Positions 7,001 through 59,383 of a DNA stretch of 64,000 nt are shown here, in pieces. Position numbers and translations under genes: made by a program. Location: IMG/VR virus record IMGVR_UViG_3300023181_000028, positions 16,012 through 80,011 of that record, one strand, 5' to 3'. The notes beneath the pieces were generated by a model. That model was given only the letters and a program-made list of their open reading frames with translations. It was not told the DNA's origin and did no database searches. How positions within the stretch are numbered: position 1 is the stretch's first letter; the number at the start of each line of letters is the position of its first letter. Source of the DNA: a virus.

Positions 7001-7456
7001 ATGAGTAAATTTGAATTACCAGCTAATTTCCCTAAAGCAAGAAGGGGTAGCGTTATCCTTAAACAGGTGATACAGGGGACTTCCATCACTGACGGAGGTA
7101 TTATCCTTGCAGATGCCGCCGAGAACGTCCAGCGCCCTAATGTAGGTATTATATACGCCACAGGAGAAGGCGTAGGAGAAGATCTAGCCCCTGGAATGAA
7201 AGTGTATTACAATCAATACGCCAACCTTGAGCTTCATATCAATGGCCGTCCTTATTTCATGATGCATGACGCGGATATCTATTGCATATTGGATGATGAG
7301 AATCGCGTGGCTAATATCATTAAGCCAAAAGATGAAGTTCGCAGAGGTAAAAAGATCACCCAGCAGGCAGGAATGGTTAAGAGATTAGCTGTTAAAAGCG
7401 CTAACGACAAAGACAAAAGAGAAGAAACCTACAAAAAAATAATCAAGAAGAAATGA
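7001..7456 (+). CDS. GroES-like co-chaperonin
   Basis: A 151-residue Cpn10-fold protein, probably a phage replacement for host GroES that works with host GroEL to fold virion proteins (compare T4 gp31). Residues 14-100 match the fold: RGSVILKQV, the mobile loop about 26-36 ending in GGIIL (the Ile-x-Leu GroEL-contact triplet of GroES), PNVGIIYATGEGV, PGMKVYYNQYANLEL and DADIYCILDD. Residues 101-151 are a basic tail absent from bacterial GroES (about 97 residues). The following gene overlaps by 4 bp. Confidence 0.8.
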   Translation: MSKFELPANFPKARRGSVILKQVIQGTSITDGGIILADAAENVQRPNVGIIYATGEGVGEDLAPGMKVYYNQYANLELHINGRPYFMMHDADIYCILDDENRVANIIKPKDEVRRGKKITQQAGMVKRLAVKSANDKDKREETYKKIIKKK

Positions 7457-39094: not shown

Positions 39095-40702
39095 TTAGTC
39101 AATTACTGTATCAGATCCAACAGACCAGAACTCAGTGATATTCGGAACCGCAGCAACACTATTTAAGTTAGTGTACTGGAAGAAAGGAATAAGCACAGTA
39201 CCAGCAGCAAACACTAAAGGCACAGTAGTTCCTACAGAGTAGATAGGGTAAGATACGTTGTTCACAAACGCTGTTACAGTACCATCAATGGCAACCTCTA
39301 CGCGGAAGTCATAAACAACCGTAGTGAGTAAGTTAACCGCAGAAGTAGTAGTTACAGAAGCGGCAGAAACCAATGAACCGTAAGTTGCAATCGCAGTTCC
39401 AGCAGCGCCAGTTCCAATAGTAGCAAGTTTACCGTATGTTCCAAAAGCTGCTTGGTGAGCCTCTTTACTTCTGAATCCAACCATGAACACAATGTTCGCA
39501 GGAGTTGTAAAAGATGCCTTAGCGTTAACCGTAGCAGGAGTTTTACCAACAATGAATTGCTGACTGTTATTCGTGCTTAAAGAAGGAGTATAAGCAGCAC
39601 CCTCAGTTGCAGTTGCATCTTGCTCAAACAAGAAACCTGTAGCGGAGTTAGCACCTGTAACGATAGTTTGAGTTCCAATGTTAAAGTGATTCAACATTCC
39701 ATAAGGAGTAAGGAACTTGTTAGCAACACCAGCAGTTGTAGCAGGAGCCGCGCCAAGTAAACCTTGCTCTACGAAATCTTGGTCAAACCATTGTTGAACT
39801 AAAGAAGCGTCCATGTAACAAGTTTGAACCATCAATTTACGAAGTTCACGCTCAGCAGTTAAGAAACCAGCTAAGTTAGTTGTAGATGATCCAGTACCAT
39901 TATCCACAGCGATTGCAGATTCACGAGGAACATATACATACTGACCTGATAGATTTGCACCAACGATCTCTTTTAAAGAGTTGATAACGAAAATATCATA
40001 ATTCTGACCAGCGGTAGCATAAGTCTTAGGATTAGTTGCAGTTCCAAAAGGAGCATCTAAATTACCTTGAATTAAGTTACCATACATATAGTCGATAACC
40101 GGAGCTTGTTGCGCCAATTTAGCACCTACACCACTTGAAGTCTGACCCGCAGTTGTTACAGTGAAATTACTTCTTGTGAAACCTGATTGATCTGGATTAG
40201 CCACAGTGATTACAGTACTAGCGAATTTCTCGTTAGTCATTGTCTGTGATTTCTCTGGATAGTAATCAGTGTTATCTGTTACTGTGAAACCATTACCACT
40301 TCCTAAAGAAACGGCAGTAACGCGATTCACACCACTCTCTAAGTTGATTTTAGCAACTAAACCAGCGTGGATAGCCTCACGTTGCTGAGCAACCGTACCG
40401 TAAATGTTTACGTTAGAATTGGTTTGAAATGTGTAACGTCTAAGGTTTTCCTGATAACCATCTCTAGTACGGTTAGGATCACCAATTGCTACTGTATAAT
40501 TTGTTAAACCGGTTGGCGTATAAGCCGTGTTACCTACTGTTACTACTTGAGCCACAGCGGCGCGATACTTGATTTGAACGATTCCGGTTACATTCTTTTT
40601 AAGAATTTCCTTCAAACCTGTGATGTTAATTTTTCCACCACTGCACTGCACATCCGCATTTGAGGATGTTTTCAACAGTACTGATTCTCTTACTGATTTC
40701 AT
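39095..40702 (-). CDS. Structural protein, probably abundant virion component
   Basis: A 535-residue protein rich in Ala, Thr, Val and Gly, with its own promoter and terminator, which suggests high expression. N-terminal part: MKSVRESVLLKTSSNADVQ, then helix and strand segments; C-terminal 180 residues look like a lectin-type or jelly-roll beta domain (FTTPANIVFMVGFRSKEAH, VVYDFRVEVAIDGTVTAFVN). It might be a head fibre, auxiliary capsid protein or tail protein. Position is between the connector-like gene and the decoration candidate. Confidence 0.6.
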   Translation of the reverse strand: MKSVRESVLLKTSSNADVQCSGGKINITGLKEILKKNVTGIVQIKYRAAVAQVVTVGNTAYTPTGLTNYTVAIGDPNRTRDGYQENLRRYTFQTNSNVNIYGTVAQQREAIHAGLVAKINLESGVNRVTAVSLGSGNGFTVTDNTDYYPEKSQTMTNEKFASTVITVANPDQSGFTRSNFTVTTAGQTSSGVGAKLAQQAPVIDYMYGNLIQGNLDAPFGTATNPKTYATAGQNYDIFVINSLKEIVGANLSGQYVYVPRESAIAVDNGTGSSTTNLAGFLTAERELRKLMVQTCYMDASLVQQWFDQDFVEQGLLGAAPATTAGVANKFLTPYGMLNHFNIGTQTIVTGANSATGFLFEQDATATEGAAYTPSLSTNNSQQFIVGKTPATVNAKASFTTPANIVFMVGFRSKEAHQAAFGTYGKLATIGTGAAGTAIATYGSLVSAASVTTTSAVNLLTTVVYDFRVEVAIDGTVTAFVNNVSYPIYSVGTTVPLVFAAGTVLIPFFQYTNLNSVAAVPNITEFWSVGSDTVID

Positions 40703-54652: not shown

Positions 54653-55093
54653 TTATTTATTAATATTCAAATTAATTGTATTATTATGCAATTCCTTGTA
54701 GTCGTTAATATAACTCTCAACTGTCTCTTTATAACCCTTGCTATCCCGCATAGTCTGTTTTACCTTCTTACAATAGAATACCATAGATGAATGATCTCTT
54801 CCGCCGTAAAACTGCCCTATCTCTCCCAATGTGAATTGATACCCATAGATTGCCCGTGTCACATACACGCATATCTCCCTCACCCTTGCGTTATCCTGAT
54901 GCCTGGCCTTATCCCTTACATTCTCTAATCTAGCCCTCATCCGGTTACAAACATATTCTCCCACTGCCATAATGCATTCAGAAGCATCGGCTGTTAATTC
55001 CTGTTGAACCTTAGGTACTAAGTAATATTCTTCCTTGATCCGCGCCACTACATTCTCTGTAATAGCTTTTAATTGAACTTCTGTTAGTTTCAT
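54653..55093 (-). CDS. Stand-alone DnaA domain IV-like DNA-binding protein
   Basis: A 146-residue protein whose residues 70-112 match the C-terminal DNA-binding domain of DnaA: VREICVYVTRAIYG (helix with the basic loop), FTLGEIGQFYGGRDHSS (helix-turn-helix and the GGRDH signature) and MVFYCKKV. In DnaA the Arg and GRDHT residues contact the DnaA box. The AAA+ ATPase domain is absent. It could mark an origin for host or phage helicase loading or compete with host DnaA. It is encoded next to a J-domain protein and a PIF1-like helicase. Confidence 0.8.
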   Translation of the reverse strand: MKLTEVQLKAITENVVARIKEEYYLVPKVQQELTADASECIMAVGEYVCNRMRARLENVRDKARHQDNARVREICVYVTRAIYGYQFTLGEIGQFYGGRDHSSMVFYCKKVKQTMRDSKGYKETVESYINDYKELHNNTINLNINK

Positions 55094-55683
55094 GCTTGTC
55101 TAAAATTAAATCCGTGAAACTCATAACTCTGTTGCGGCGGAGCTTCATCAAACTTATAATGAACACTCATCAAACATTCCCCGCATTCCCTCAAGAATTT
55201 AATATTATCCTTAATCCCCTCTATCTCCCTCTCAATATTAACTACATTGTTCTTTACAACCTGCAACACAACTCCCGATTCCCCACTTAGCCTTTTAACG
55301 ACCTTATTAAGCTTATTTAATTGTTTCTGACACTCCAGTACCTTATTCTCATTATCGTCCACCATAAGGCCATTATATTCCCTAAACTCCTGTATTAAGT
55401 CCTTATAATCCACATCATTCTGCGCGATAATATTCATAAAGATCTGCTGAACATATTGACTAAACTTAAGATCAAAGCTTTCCATCTCCTCATCTCCCGT
55501 CCGGTCATATTTATCCCTTCTGACCTTATCCCGTAAAACCATATACGCGCGGTTAACCTCAATCATGTCCTCATGACTACCACCCTTATCTTCATGCTTT
55601 TCTTTAGCCATATCTTTATAAGCTTGTTTTATTTCCTGTTGCGTGGCGTTCTTATCCACACCTAGTATTTCGTATAATGTCAT
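55090..55683 (-). CDS. J-domain protein with HED in place of HPD
   Basis: A 197-residue protein. Residues 1-65 are a J domain (LYEILGVDKNATQQEIKQAY, then EVNRAYMVLRDKVRRDKYD). The HPD motif that stimulates DnaK ATPase reads His-Glu-Asp (residues 30-32). The remaining 130 residues are helical and lack Gly/Phe and zinc-finger parts, so it is not a full DnaJ. It overlaps the DnaA-like gene by 4 bp. It may recruit or block DnaK in replication-complex remodelling. Start: ATG at 55683, 2 bp after the previous stop. Confidence 0.75.
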   Translation of the reverse strand: MTLYEILGVDKNATQQEIKQAYKDMAKEKHEDKGGSHEDMIEVNRAYMVLRDKVRRDKYDRTGDEEMESFDLKFSQYVQQIFMNIIAQNDVDYKDLIQEFREYNGLMVDDNENKVLECQKQLNKLNKVVKRLSGESGVVLQVVKNNVVNIEREIEGIKDNIKFLRECGECLMSVHYKFDEAPPQQSYEFHGFNFRQA

Positions 55684-55685
55684 AA

Positions 55686-56612
55686 TTACAGCATCCAATA
55701 CTGTTCCCACAGCGCGCGGTTAACTTTAAGAGATGTTTCAGCGTCTTTAGTCTCGTGGAAATACAAATGATATTCATCCTTGTTTCTTTCGCAGAAAATT
55801 AATTCGTCCACCTGTCTGCGAACAACCCCAACATAATTTTTAGATAAAGGCTTTCCTTCATTTGCTTTAGCGCAAATATGACTCAACTGTGCAAATGCAA
55901 GGGCGGATAAAGCTTGTTTCTCGGTGCGGTATTGATTTTTAAACCACGGATGAGCTATAGTATTACAAGCTTTTTTAACGTTAAGTTTTGATAAAGCTCC
56001 GTTGGTAAGAAGCTCAATGTAATGCCCCGGCTCAAAACTCTCCTCCCATGTAAACCCTTCCTTACCATCTAATTCTTCTTTAGAGAAGTTATCGAGTAGG
56101 AATTTAAGAATTGACGTGTTAATCAGGCTGTTTGAAGTGACAAGAACGCCAACGCCCGCACTTTCAACTTTCGGCTGACAATTATTCCACATCTCCCGCG
56201 CTGTTTCAAGACTCATAGTGATCGGACGTGAATCTGATTTATTTGGTGAAGACGTAGCGTTAAAATAACCATGACCGTTACCGCATCTCTTTCTAAACCT
56301 ATCCACCCTCTCCGACTGACTCATCTCTTTATCCAAAACAGCATCCGCAATGTAATCACTTCCTAGTTTTTGAGCCACAAAGTCAACTCCCGAAAGCTCT
56401 ATAAACTTGTCGATGGTTAATGCTTTTCCGAATGAAAATTTTAAGCAAGCAAGATCTTTTTCGTTATCTATTCCATAATAACGACCAACATCAAACCCCT
56501 CATATTCTATATGACCCTCTTTATCATTCAAATACCTAATCACAGTATCTTTAAATCTCTGACTTCCGTCATTGCGAACCGACCAGCTCTCTGGTAATCT
56601 GTTTTCTTTCAT
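55686..56612 (-). CDS. Hypothetical replication-cluster protein, 308 aa
   Basis: A 308-residue protein (MKENRLPESWSVRNDGSQRF at the N-terminus). It contains short Cys/His segments (NGHGYFNATSSPN) and helical parts, and no classical nuclease, helicase or polymerase motif. The LPESW start is common in phage hypothetical proteins. Start: ATG at 56612 is preferred; the in-frame ATG at 56675 would overlap the upstream gene. It lies between the helicase and the J-domain gene. Confidence 0.6.
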   Translation of the reverse strand: MKENRLPESWSVRNDGSQRFKDTVIRYLNDKEGHIEYEGFDVGRYYGIDNEKDLACLKFSFGKALTIDKFIELSGVDFVAQKLGSDYIADAVLDKEMSQSERVDRFRKRCGNGHGYFNATSSPNKSDSRPITMSLETAREMWNNCQPKVESAGVGVLVTSNSLINTSILKFLLDNFSKEELDGKEGFTWEESFEPGHYIELLTNGALSKLNVKKACNTIAHPWFKNQYRTEKQALSALAFAQLSHICAKANEGKPLSKNYVGVVRRQVDELIFCERNKDEYHLYFHETKDAETSLKVNRALWEQYWML

Positions 56613-56622
56613 ATTATTTGTT

Positions 56623-56886
56623 TTAAATATAATTTTTAACTGAATAAGCCTCGTAATCATATAGATTTGGCCCATAATGACTCATACCCTCTTTCACTCC
56701 GTAATCTATTATTCCGCCGCTTGTCAAATTTTCACTTTTCCACGACCAATAACCATCTTCCGATCTTTCTGGTAGACTAACCACTTTGCACTTAATGCCT
56801 ATTCCGTATTCATATTCATAATGAACATCGCCAATCTTAATGTTACTCACATTAATACCACCTTTAGTTATCACATTCTTTTTCAT
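56623..56886 (-). CDS. Hypothetical protein, 87 aa
   Basis: A small beta-rich protein (VHYEYEYGIGIKCKVVSLPE, then DGYWSWKSENLTSGG). A CAACCTT-type promoter lies 13 bp upstream, so it starts a transcript of its own inside the replication cluster. The family is not recognised. Confidence 0.6.
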   Translation of the reverse strand: MKKNVITKGGINVSNIKIGDVHYEYEYGIGIKCKVVSLPERSEDGYWSWKSENLTSGGIIDYGVKEGMSHYGPNLYDYEAYSVKNYI

Positions 56887-56899
56887 ATCCCTAGTTAAA

Positions 56900-56925
56900 C
56901 GTTATACATTACATTAAGGTTTCAT
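56900..56925 (-). promoter_or_regulatory. CAACCTT-type promoter before 56623-56886
   Basis: On the minus strand ATGAAACCTT, 8-bp gap, GTATAACG, 13 bp before the ATG. It lies partly inside the 3' end of the helicase gene. Confidence 0.5.
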
Positions 56926-58115
56926 TTATATTCATAAATAATACTCAACCCCTCCGGTCCCGTCACCCTACTCAAAGCCACATACAACTGCTCCTTCTGA
57001 AAGCACGGCCTAGTCAAATCCACAGTCACCTCCTCAAATGTCATCCCCTGGCTCTTATGAATACTCAACGCATAAGCCAACCTTATCGGATACTGCTCAA
57101 TACTCCCCAATTCCTGCAACTCCAAACTACCATACTTATCCGCCAACACATACTCCTTCTTAGTGAAAGTCATCCTATCCAAACTATATTCCTCATTCTC
57201 CACCCTTATAAAGAACCTGTCCTCCCCATTCATCTCCCTCACCACAAAAGTCCCAATCGTCCCGTTAACCAACGGATTATTCTTACTATTCGCCAAATAC
57301 ATTATCCTAGCCCCGTCCTTAACCCTAACCTCACTCTCCAAATTAAAATCATCAGCCTTCACATTCCCATCCACCTTCGCCACAAACACCCATTCCTTCC
57401 CCTCAATCTTTGCCAACCCCTCCTCATTGTATTTCTTTACAGTGCTATTGTAAGGAGCCAAGATAATCCCCTTCTCTCCCTTTCCTATAAACCTCTTAAA
57501 ATAAGGACTCCTCTTCCCATCCCTCACCTTATTCAAAGCCTCTATAAACTCCTCATCACTCTGCCTCAATATCTCATCCAACTCCACATCCACTACCCCC
57601 AACTTCTCATAACACCCCGCATCATAAAACCTATACCCCTCATAACCCTTCAACAAAACACTCCTTAAATTATCATACATAACCGGCGGCAACTGCTTCA
57701 AATCCCCCACAAACACCACCTGCTTCTCCCACAAATCCCCACACCAATTCTTGACCATAGTCCAATTAATCGCATCCAACAAATCCGGCCTCAACATACT
57801 CACCTCATCTATAAAAAACACATCCACAGCCTTTATCATTCTCCTCTTCTCAGTCCTCAAAAAATTAACACTCTTATAATCACTAACCCCAAAAGGATTT
57901 ATAGCAAACATACTATGTATCGTCTGACCGCCTATATTATTAGCAGCTATCCCCGTAGGAGCTATCGCCACAACCTTCTTACCCCTCCTCTTCAACTCCT
58001 CCATCACATCCCTTACAATCCAACTCTTACCCGTACCAGCCTTCCCACTCAAATAACAACTACTGCCACCCAATACCAATTCTCTAAACTCTTCTTGTTT
58101 CTTACTATATCCCAT
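56922..58115 (-). CDS. PIF1-like superfamily 1 DNA helicase
   Basis: A 397-residue helicase that would unwind DNA 5' to 3' at the replication fork, by family knowledge. Motifs: LSGKAGTGKS (22-31, Walker A), APTGIAANN (52-60), FIDEVSML (101-108, Walker B), VGDLKQLPP (136-144), and near the end LSIHKSQGMTFEEV and QLYVALSRVTG. The coding strand is strikingly poor in C. Start: ATG at 58115, because the earlier in-frame ATG at 58133 lies in the -7 box of the upstream promoter. Confidence 0.85.
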   Translation of the reverse strand: MGYSKKQEEFRELVLGGSSCYLSGKAGTGKSWIVRDVMEELKRRGKKVVAIAPTGIAANNIGGQTIHSMFAINPFGVSDYKSVNFLRTEKRRMIKAVDVFFIDEVSMLRPDLLDAINWTMVKNWCGDLWEKQVVFVGDLKQLPPVMYDNLRSVLLKGYEGYRFYDAGCYEKLGVVDVELDEILRQSDEEFIEALNKVRDGKRSPYFKRFIGKGEKGIILAPYNSTVKKYNEEGLAKIEGKEWVFVAKVDGNVKADDFNLESEVRVKDGARIMYLANSKNNPLVNGTIGTFVVREMNGEDRFFIRVENEEYSLDRMTFTKKEYVLADKYGSLELQELGSIEQYPIRLAYALSIHKSQGMTFEEVTVDLTRPCFQKEQLYVALSRVTGPEGLSIIYEYK

Positions 58116-58127
58116 AAACACCTTATA

Positions 58128-58152
58128 CCCCATTATTCAAATAAGGTTGCAT
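58128..58152 (-). promoter_or_regulatory. CAACCTT-type promoter for the replication cluster
   Basis: On the minus strand ATGCAACCTT, 7-bp gap, TAATGGGG, 12 bp before the chosen helicase start at 58115. Confidence 0.5.
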
Positions 58153-58421
58153 AAAAATACAAACAAAATTATTTTTTATAAAAAATTTCCCAATGTGAAT
58201 TAATACCACATTCTGATATTATATGAAAGAACGGGGGCGGATACCTATGTAGCACTTTTTCCGTCTTAGAAAAAATAAACCGTGTGGGGGGCTTTGTTTC
58301 TGATGGCAGATCATTTGAGAATTTATTTATCTGTGAATTTATTAACTGAGGTTGCGCGGATAATCAACACACTTGTTAGATCTATTTGACATGTGTGTAT
58401 GCTAAATTATAATTGTGAGCA

Positions 58422-58474
58422 TTACAGAATTTGTAAGGAAATAGATATGCGCTGAATCATTACAGATATTGTAA
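58422..58474. promoter_or_regulatory. Paired palindrome, locus 4 (origin candidate)
   Basis: Sites at 58422-58436 (TTACA-GAATT-TGTAA) and 58460-58474 (TTACA-GATAT-TGTAA), both perfect, starts 38 bp apart. It lies in the middle of the divergent spacer, away from any start codon. Confidence 0.8.
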
Positions 58475-58881
58475 TGAAAGTTAGTATATATGTTATGGAG
58501 ATATGTATAGTAAGTAAGGGATTAGTATATATATTAGCATAATCCTGGTATTATCCGCCAATTATCCCCTCACTATTTATAAAACTGTTAAATATGTTAA
58601 ATATGAGTGGTATCGCGATACTCAACGGTGGACAAAACGCACTTTACCTCCAAATTAGCCTCTATTTTAAGCCTTATTTCTGCCTAATTTCATTCACTAA
58701 CACGTAAATTGATAGATTTTGTGACAAATATTCAAATTAGGACACATGAGGGGTGCATAATACACGCTGATATTTATGTTAGTGATAATAGGGTGTTATA
58801 TGGGTAATTGTGAGGTGTTGGGATGTGGTTGTGGAGTGATATTGGGTTATTGTAGAGTGTTATGGTAATAATAGGTAGCTA

Positions 58882-58906
58882 GTGCAACCTTTGTTGTGGT
58901 AGTGTG
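58882..58906 (+). promoter_or_regulatory. CAACCTT-type element in the C-poor stretch
   Basis: GTGCAACCTT, 7-bp gap, GTAGTGTG. It stands 13 bp before the ATG of the small membrane ORF at 58920 and is one of the few places with C in this stretch. Confidence 0.35.
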
Positions 58907-58919
58907 GTATAAGGGATAT

Positions 58920-59114
58920 ATGGAGAGATTTGTAGTTATAATGGTTTACGTTTATTATAGTGTTATTAGTGTTAGTGTGATGTTAAGGTTTATGTGTTGG
59001 TGTATTGGGTATAATGGTTTTAATAGTGTTATTGCTAGTATTCTTATTATTAGTAGTGTTATATACTTTAGTGTATTGATGTTATTGTATTTGTTTAGTA
59101 GGATAAGGGATTAA
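58920..59114 (+). CDS. Possible small membrane protein in a C-poor stretch
   Basis: A 64-residue frame starting MERFVVIMVYVYYSVISVSV, with two hydrophobic segments (about 4-28 and 34-60) and a charged end (SRIRD). The CAACCTT element just upstream supports transcription. Against it, T/G-rich DNA gives hydrophobic residues by chance, so it may not be coding. Confidence 0.35.
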   Translation: MERFVVIMVYVYYSVISVSVMLRFMCWCIGYNGFNSVIASILIISSVIYFSVLMLLYLFSRIRD

Positions 59115-59268
59115 CATCCGTCGGTATCCGCGCGAATGCAGGTAATAAACTATCAAAATTTAGGCCTATACACTCATTACAGTCTATTTGAGACGCTATT
59201 ATTAATTAGCGATACTGAGGTATTGATAGTAATATAATAGCTTAGAATGAATGTATTTAATTATTTCC

Positions 59269-59321
59269 TTTTGCCGCTCAAATAAGATCTTTGCCACTCA
59301 TCCTATTCCTTTTACCGTTCG
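59269..59321 (+). repeat. Three degenerate iterons, 20-21 bp apart
   Basis: TTTTGCCGCTCA at 59269-59280, CTTTGCCACTCA at 59289-59300 and TTTTACCGTTCG at 59310-59321. Starts are 20 and 21 bp apart. A related sequence appears inverted as TGAGCGGTAATA at 60870. They end 34 bp before the TACCTTTG box of the next promoter. Confidence 0.45.
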
Positions 59322-59354
59322 TGTAGTATTTCAATTATGCCCCTTTTTACGATG

Positions 59355-59362
59355 TACCTTTG
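59355..59362 (+). promoter_or_regulatory. Promoter -7 box (TACCTTTG)
   Basis: A perfect TAnnTTTG box 21 bp before the ATG at 59384. It excludes the in-frame TTG at 59360 as the start. Confidence 0.5.
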
Positions 59363-59383
59363 ATTCAAGAAAAACAAAATAAC

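Follow-up and report, generated by a model that had tools for sequence, protein, structure and literature searches.

Sequence profiles and a predicted structure confirmed that the putative product of a gene at positions 54653–55093 (minus strand) of the DNA analysed here, a window of 64,000 nucleotides spanning bases 16012–80011 of a virus record 80,011 bases long, consists of a single DnaA domain IV behind one N-terminal helix, with no ATPase part. Its most likely role, to which we assign a probability of about 0.45, would be that of an accessory protein occupying DnaA boxes as a competitor or regulator of DnaA, more likely on host DNA.

Domain composition and putative base contacts

The open reading frame (ORF) begins with ATG, is intact, and in its own frame only shows a codon usage resembling that of the large genes of the phage. 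A Pfam search with the 146-amino-acid protein matched Bac_DnaA_C (PF08299) at residues 44–111 with 45.1 bits (E = 1.1e-11), above the gathering score of 31.5 bits, and no competing helix-turn-helix family scored, the sole other match (E = 0.13) being noise. The search against this profile, which a preliminary description of the sequence had named as a check, thus gave no better match to an unrelated helix-turn-helix family and bore out the proposal that a phage encodes the DNA-binding domain of DnaA on its own. The TIGR00362 model of DnaA was matched at its C-terminal positions 346–432 only (E = 3.7e-12, 46 bits), and the protein fell below the full-length cut-off of 343.9 and lacked the AAA+ ATPase that this model calls for. 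No AAA+ domain is present in the 146 residues, as the preliminary description had stated, and no AAA+ remnant flanks the gene.

The best sequence match in the PDB was domain IV of E. coli DnaA (1j1v, E = 2.7e-7). An AlphaFold2 model, built with 26 other phage proteins carrying the domain as input, reached a pLDDT of 89.5, and the predicted fold superposed on the DNA-binding domain of Mycobacterium tuberculosis DnaA with box DNA (3pvp; Z 16.6, 96 residues, 1.5 Å) and on 1j1v, likewise with box DNA (Z 16.3, 94 residues, 1.5 Å). The six top structure matches were all DnaA, followed by RptR, an unrelated fold, at Z 4.8. The domain IV fold covers residues 37–134 (54692–54985, minus strand; VIA-align, 39–137 with 3pvp and 39–134 with 1j1v) and includes the helix-turn-helix and the GGRDHSS signature at residues 97–103 (54785–54805, minus strand; E. 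coli 430–436), both of which had been recognized in the preliminary description. The range aligned with DnaA starts at residue 34–39, so that the additional N-terminal helix predicted at residues 5–24 (55022–55081, minus strand) lies outside domain IV. The protein therefore shares with DnaA the fold, the GGRDH signature and the equivalent of R399, but has no domains I–III, carries the extra helix, has a two-residue insertion preceding the helix-turn-helix as well as the changes P423G, T435S and H439F, and is only 19–24% identical to the DnaA structures across superposed residues.

Base-specific contacts in E. coli DnaA are made by residues 399, 423, 432–435 and 438–439 (PMC5043019; also PMC7561715), and box binding is impaired in the mutants R399A and T435M (PMC5742627). 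When aligned to 1j1v, the phage protein is identical at R399 (Arg64, 54902–54904, minus strand), which makes the minor-groove contact (PMC5043019; PMC5742627), and at R432, D433 and H434. T435 is replaced by Ser and L438 by Val, both conservative changes, P423 by Gly and H439 by Phe; Ser is the most frequent state at position 435 in epsilon- and delta-proteobacteria (PMC5043019). As most contact residues are kept and some are changed, the alignment suggests that binding to a DnaA-box-like site is likely but does not assure the same specificity; Gly at 423 and Phe at 439 are unlike E. coli, and hence the sequence preference may have shifted away from the boxes of the host. A possible precedent, by analogy, is offered by the Bac_DnaA_C domains of TnpA-REP proteins, for which another target or none at all has been suggested (PMC6006769).

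Carrier phage, neighbouring genes and relatives

A Crass-type capsid and terminase identify the phage that carries the gene as a distant crAss-like phage. The major capsid protein matched Crass_capsid (PF23898, E = 2.3e-19) and also Flavobacterium Fpv-type phages (24.8%), the portal and terminase matched the PHROG portal and terminase families, and the large terminase (TerL) was ∼24–26% identical to classified Crassvirales among its best hits. One arm of the genome encodes a DnaB helicase, an SF2 helicase and homologues of NinB and RusA, and no DNA polymerase was recognized in the genes that were scanned; a gene for a GroES-like co-chaperonin (7001–7456, phrog_3188) also lies within this replication arm. 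A nucleotide search of positions 40001–64000 against INPHARED gave no close DNA match, a search for the host by TerL in bacterial genomes gave no match, and a peptide scan revealed no close homologues of the DnaA-like protein in IMG/VR or GTDB genomes. PADLOC reported for the phage a weak Cas4 match alone, probably spurious.

The replication module, which includes dnaB, does not contain the gene for the domain IV protein; this gene lies in a leftward, packaging-side run whose first gene encodes a Dda/PIF1-like helicase (56922–58133, minus strand; phrog_325, E = 2.4e-77; Pfam PIF1, E = 6.3e-24). The ATG of the domain IV gene and the stop codon of the ORF upstream overlap (GCATGAAA); this upstream ORF (55090–55710, minus strand; likely start ATG at 55683) encodes a J-domain-like protein (Pfam DnaJ, E = 3.7e-15). 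Both neighbours had been pointed out in the preliminary description, and both exist, although the J-domain has HED (codons CAT GAA GAT) in place of the HPD motif. As HPD is required for the stimulation of DnaK, any recruitment of DnaK by this J-domain may not follow the usual route. In one relative (L101) the J-domain protein (255–866) is 38% identical and keeps HPD, and no DnaA domain IV gene lies between it and the gene p246; a J-domain was found in none of 41 other records with DnaA domain IV genes, some of which are fragments, and the pairing is thus not a general functional unit. PIF1 was found in the relative G025. A joint replication machine of the three proteins is unsupported, since the J-domain and PIF1 genes vary independently among relatives. 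A 329-amino-acid protein encoded at 55686–56675 gave no Pfam or credible PHROG match and has a homologue at the corresponding place (68998–69861) in the relative G005.

Relatives were collected through TerL and fifteen of them compared gene by gene. TerL and the gene preceding it were common to all 15, the exonuclease and p246 to nearly all, whereas the segment of the run from p246 to the divergent region differs among them. Relatives of 56–76 kb have several replication-arm genes in common with the window phage; the gene-by-gene search revealed DnaB in G005, G015 and G031 and did not reveal it in G027, which we nevertheless regard as keeping most of the replication arm because the SF2 helicase and other arm genes were found. 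PF08299 was absent from the near-full relatives G005, G015 and G027 (72–76 kb), all of which keep most of the replication module, and from twelve classified crAss-like or related phages. Among 32 TerL relatives it was matched in one only, and weakly (G010/L098, 19.6–21.8 bits). The L098 protein is encoded in the same zone as the window protein, a few kb upstream of TerL, and shares with it a weak Bac_DnaA_C match, but its RDH motif has become KTH and the equivalent of Arg399 is lost; phmmer detected no direct similarity between the two. The RDH-less protein lies near a zinc-finger-like ORF of the CxxCxGxG type which runs past the contig edge (513–941 and 3–296 of L098 for the pair). Based on this distribution, the domain IV gene is accessory, and the zone that holds it, bounded by the divergent region and the packaging genes, is variable.

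DnaA boxes and the divergent region

The box TTATCCACA has two copies in the window, at 39900 and at 55652, each within a listed ORF. Across the 80 kb record the consensus TTWTNCACA was observed 11 times versus 12.0 for permuted motifs, and never twice within 400 bp. Boxes with one mismatch numbered 42 versus 30.1 ± 9.1, a count reached by 10 of 100 permuted motifs; an excess over dinucleotide shuffles (36 versus 21.9) was likewise not significant against permuted motifs. Pooling the window record with 33 other DnaA domain IV loci gave 50 boxes versus 40.8 ± 13.8 and thus no general enrichment.

Between the leftward run and the genes on its other side lies a divergent, largely non-coding region (58134–59380, the end being placed at about 59359–59380), a possible origin or bidirectional promoter and a candidate target of the protein, with three TTATCC cores and four copies of GCGGATA. 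The TTATCC cores described earlier exist, at 58356–58567 (212 bp), but are at chance level genome-wide: the probability of such a triplet somewhere in the 64-kb window was ∼0.70, and two further triplets were found, so that the triplet was rejected as a signal. Within the divergent region TTATCC ranked nominally 1 of 60 among isomeric 6-mers. Two of the cores are spaced 11 bp apart (58551 and 58562), and the region also contains an imperfect inverted repeat of 25 nt (58338–58362/59125–59149). GCGGATA/TATCCGC was present four times at 58134–59380 versus 0.077 expected under a first-order model, and 20 times in the window; as it was picked as the best of ∼8,000 7-mers, and as G015, without the domain IV gene, likewise has a four-copy cluster, we consider it suggestive only.

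Weighing the possible roles

Folded like DnaA domain IV, the protein would be a sequence-specific DNA binder of one domain; on DnaA-box-like DNA, Arg64 would probably contact the minor groove while the RDHSS helix occupies the major groove. By itself, domain IV can mark or block a site by occupancy, but without the AAA+ motor and domain I it cannot support ATP-dependent oligomerization, origin melting or the docking and loading of DnaB in the manner of DnaA. Box occupancy or competition ranks first in our assessment because domain IV stands alone, no box clusters are found in the phage's own genome, and the gene is accessory. Most likely, then, it would be an early accessory protein that competes with DnaA at DnaA-box sites or regulates through them, with host oriC and DnaA-controlled promoters as the favoured sites over the initiation of the phage's own replication. 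Interference with host initiation, which had been one of the two earlier suggestions, is compatible with everything seen.

The other suggestion, recognition of DnaA-type boxes in a phage origin, fared less well, as boxes are neither enriched nor clustered and the near-full relatives do without the gene while keeping most of their replication module; as a whole, the earlier interpretation is partly supported. In its fuller form, a protein that marks the phage origin (perhaps 58134–59359) through variant boxes and helps to place the phage DnaB, we hold this explanation to be unlikely. It can draw on the DnaB encoded by the phage itself, on the replication-related neighbourhoods and names of similar genes in other phages (see below) and on the GCGGATA count in the divergent region, but the gene is far from the replication module, no oriC-like box cluster was found, AAA+ and domain I are absent, and the GCGGATA motif is subject to the selection and to the G015 cluster mentioned above. 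Somewhat more doubtful still is a transcription regulator of diverged specificity acting on early or late promoters of the phage. A single DNA-binding domain, an early operon position and the changes at 423 and 439 would suit such a regulator, and DnaA itself also acts as a transcription factor (PMC8203912); no clearly enriched motif was seen upstream of several operons, however, the close examination being that of the divergent region. That the gene is a decaying, functionless remnant of a captured dnaA appears very improbable: the L098 gene of the same zone, with its RDH motif and R399 equivalent lost, could represent such decay, but the window gene is intact, with fitting codon usage, mostly kept contact residues and no flanking AAA+ remnant.

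Should the short domain IV proteins of phages act on host boxes, they would offer a general route by which phages control replication of the host chromosome; action at phage origins would instead show phage initiation without an AAA+ initiator. A broader proposal is that the DNA-binding end of DnaA was acquired repeatedly, in many phage lineages, as a separate protein for host takeover; sitting on oriC boxes of the host, it would silence chromosome replication or redirect it. We consider this proposal, of which the crAss-like phage studied here would be one case, rather unlikely.

Comparison with known systems

Stand-alone DnaA domain IV proteins of phages are already known and common, and the window gene is a divergent example. 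A domain IV alignment was used to scan IMG/VR and confirmed 126 loci; the 80 of these that were kept and read are mostly ORFs of 107–210 amino acids with domain IV as the sole DnaA part. In L050, L071 and L084 the viral domain IV follows an N-terminal segment that by eye is Myb/SANT- or GcrA-like and gave no Pfam match. BFVD holds dozens of proteins named 'DnaA C-terminal' from uncultured Caudovirales and Cellulophaga phages phi19:1 and phi19:3, and annotated examples are Polaribacter Freya_1 gp53 and P12002L_0046, Pelagibacter HTVC035P gp24 and a protein of Rhizobium RHph_N28_2. Of the tblastn hits in INPHARED, those in six records were checked, and all six records hold full-length, bacterial-type dnaA; for this reason OR844989 and five MT83xxxx 'Bacteriophage sp.' entries of that database (L002–L007) probably contain host chromosome.

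PHROG 30669 and 27829, both named replication initiation, match several stand-alone domain IV proteins. The window protein matched neither, its best PHROG being phrog_26145 (E = 0.058), and is therefore divergent. The genes of Polaribacter phages Freya and P12002L and of the Rhizobium phage have a DnaC-like loader or other replication and recombination genes nearby, which favours a replication role in those phages. In the open-licence literature we found no functional study of a stand-alone phage DnaA domain IV protein and no test supporting the replication-initiation name of these widespread proteins, and the window example argues that at least one of them is not part of a core replication module.

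A prophage protein acting on DnaA has a precedent in YfdR of an E. coli cryptic prophage, which binds DnaA with Phe46 of domain I being important (PMC4776307). Like the window protein, YfdR is phage-derived, and it affects DnaA-dependent initiation; unlike the window protein, it acts by binding DnaA and carries no DnaA DNA-binding domain. With the known stand-alone DnaA-like proteins of phages the window protein shares its short length and domain IV as the only DnaA part, and it differs from them in its distant crAss-like carrier and in its location in a packaging-side run rather than among replication and recombination genes.
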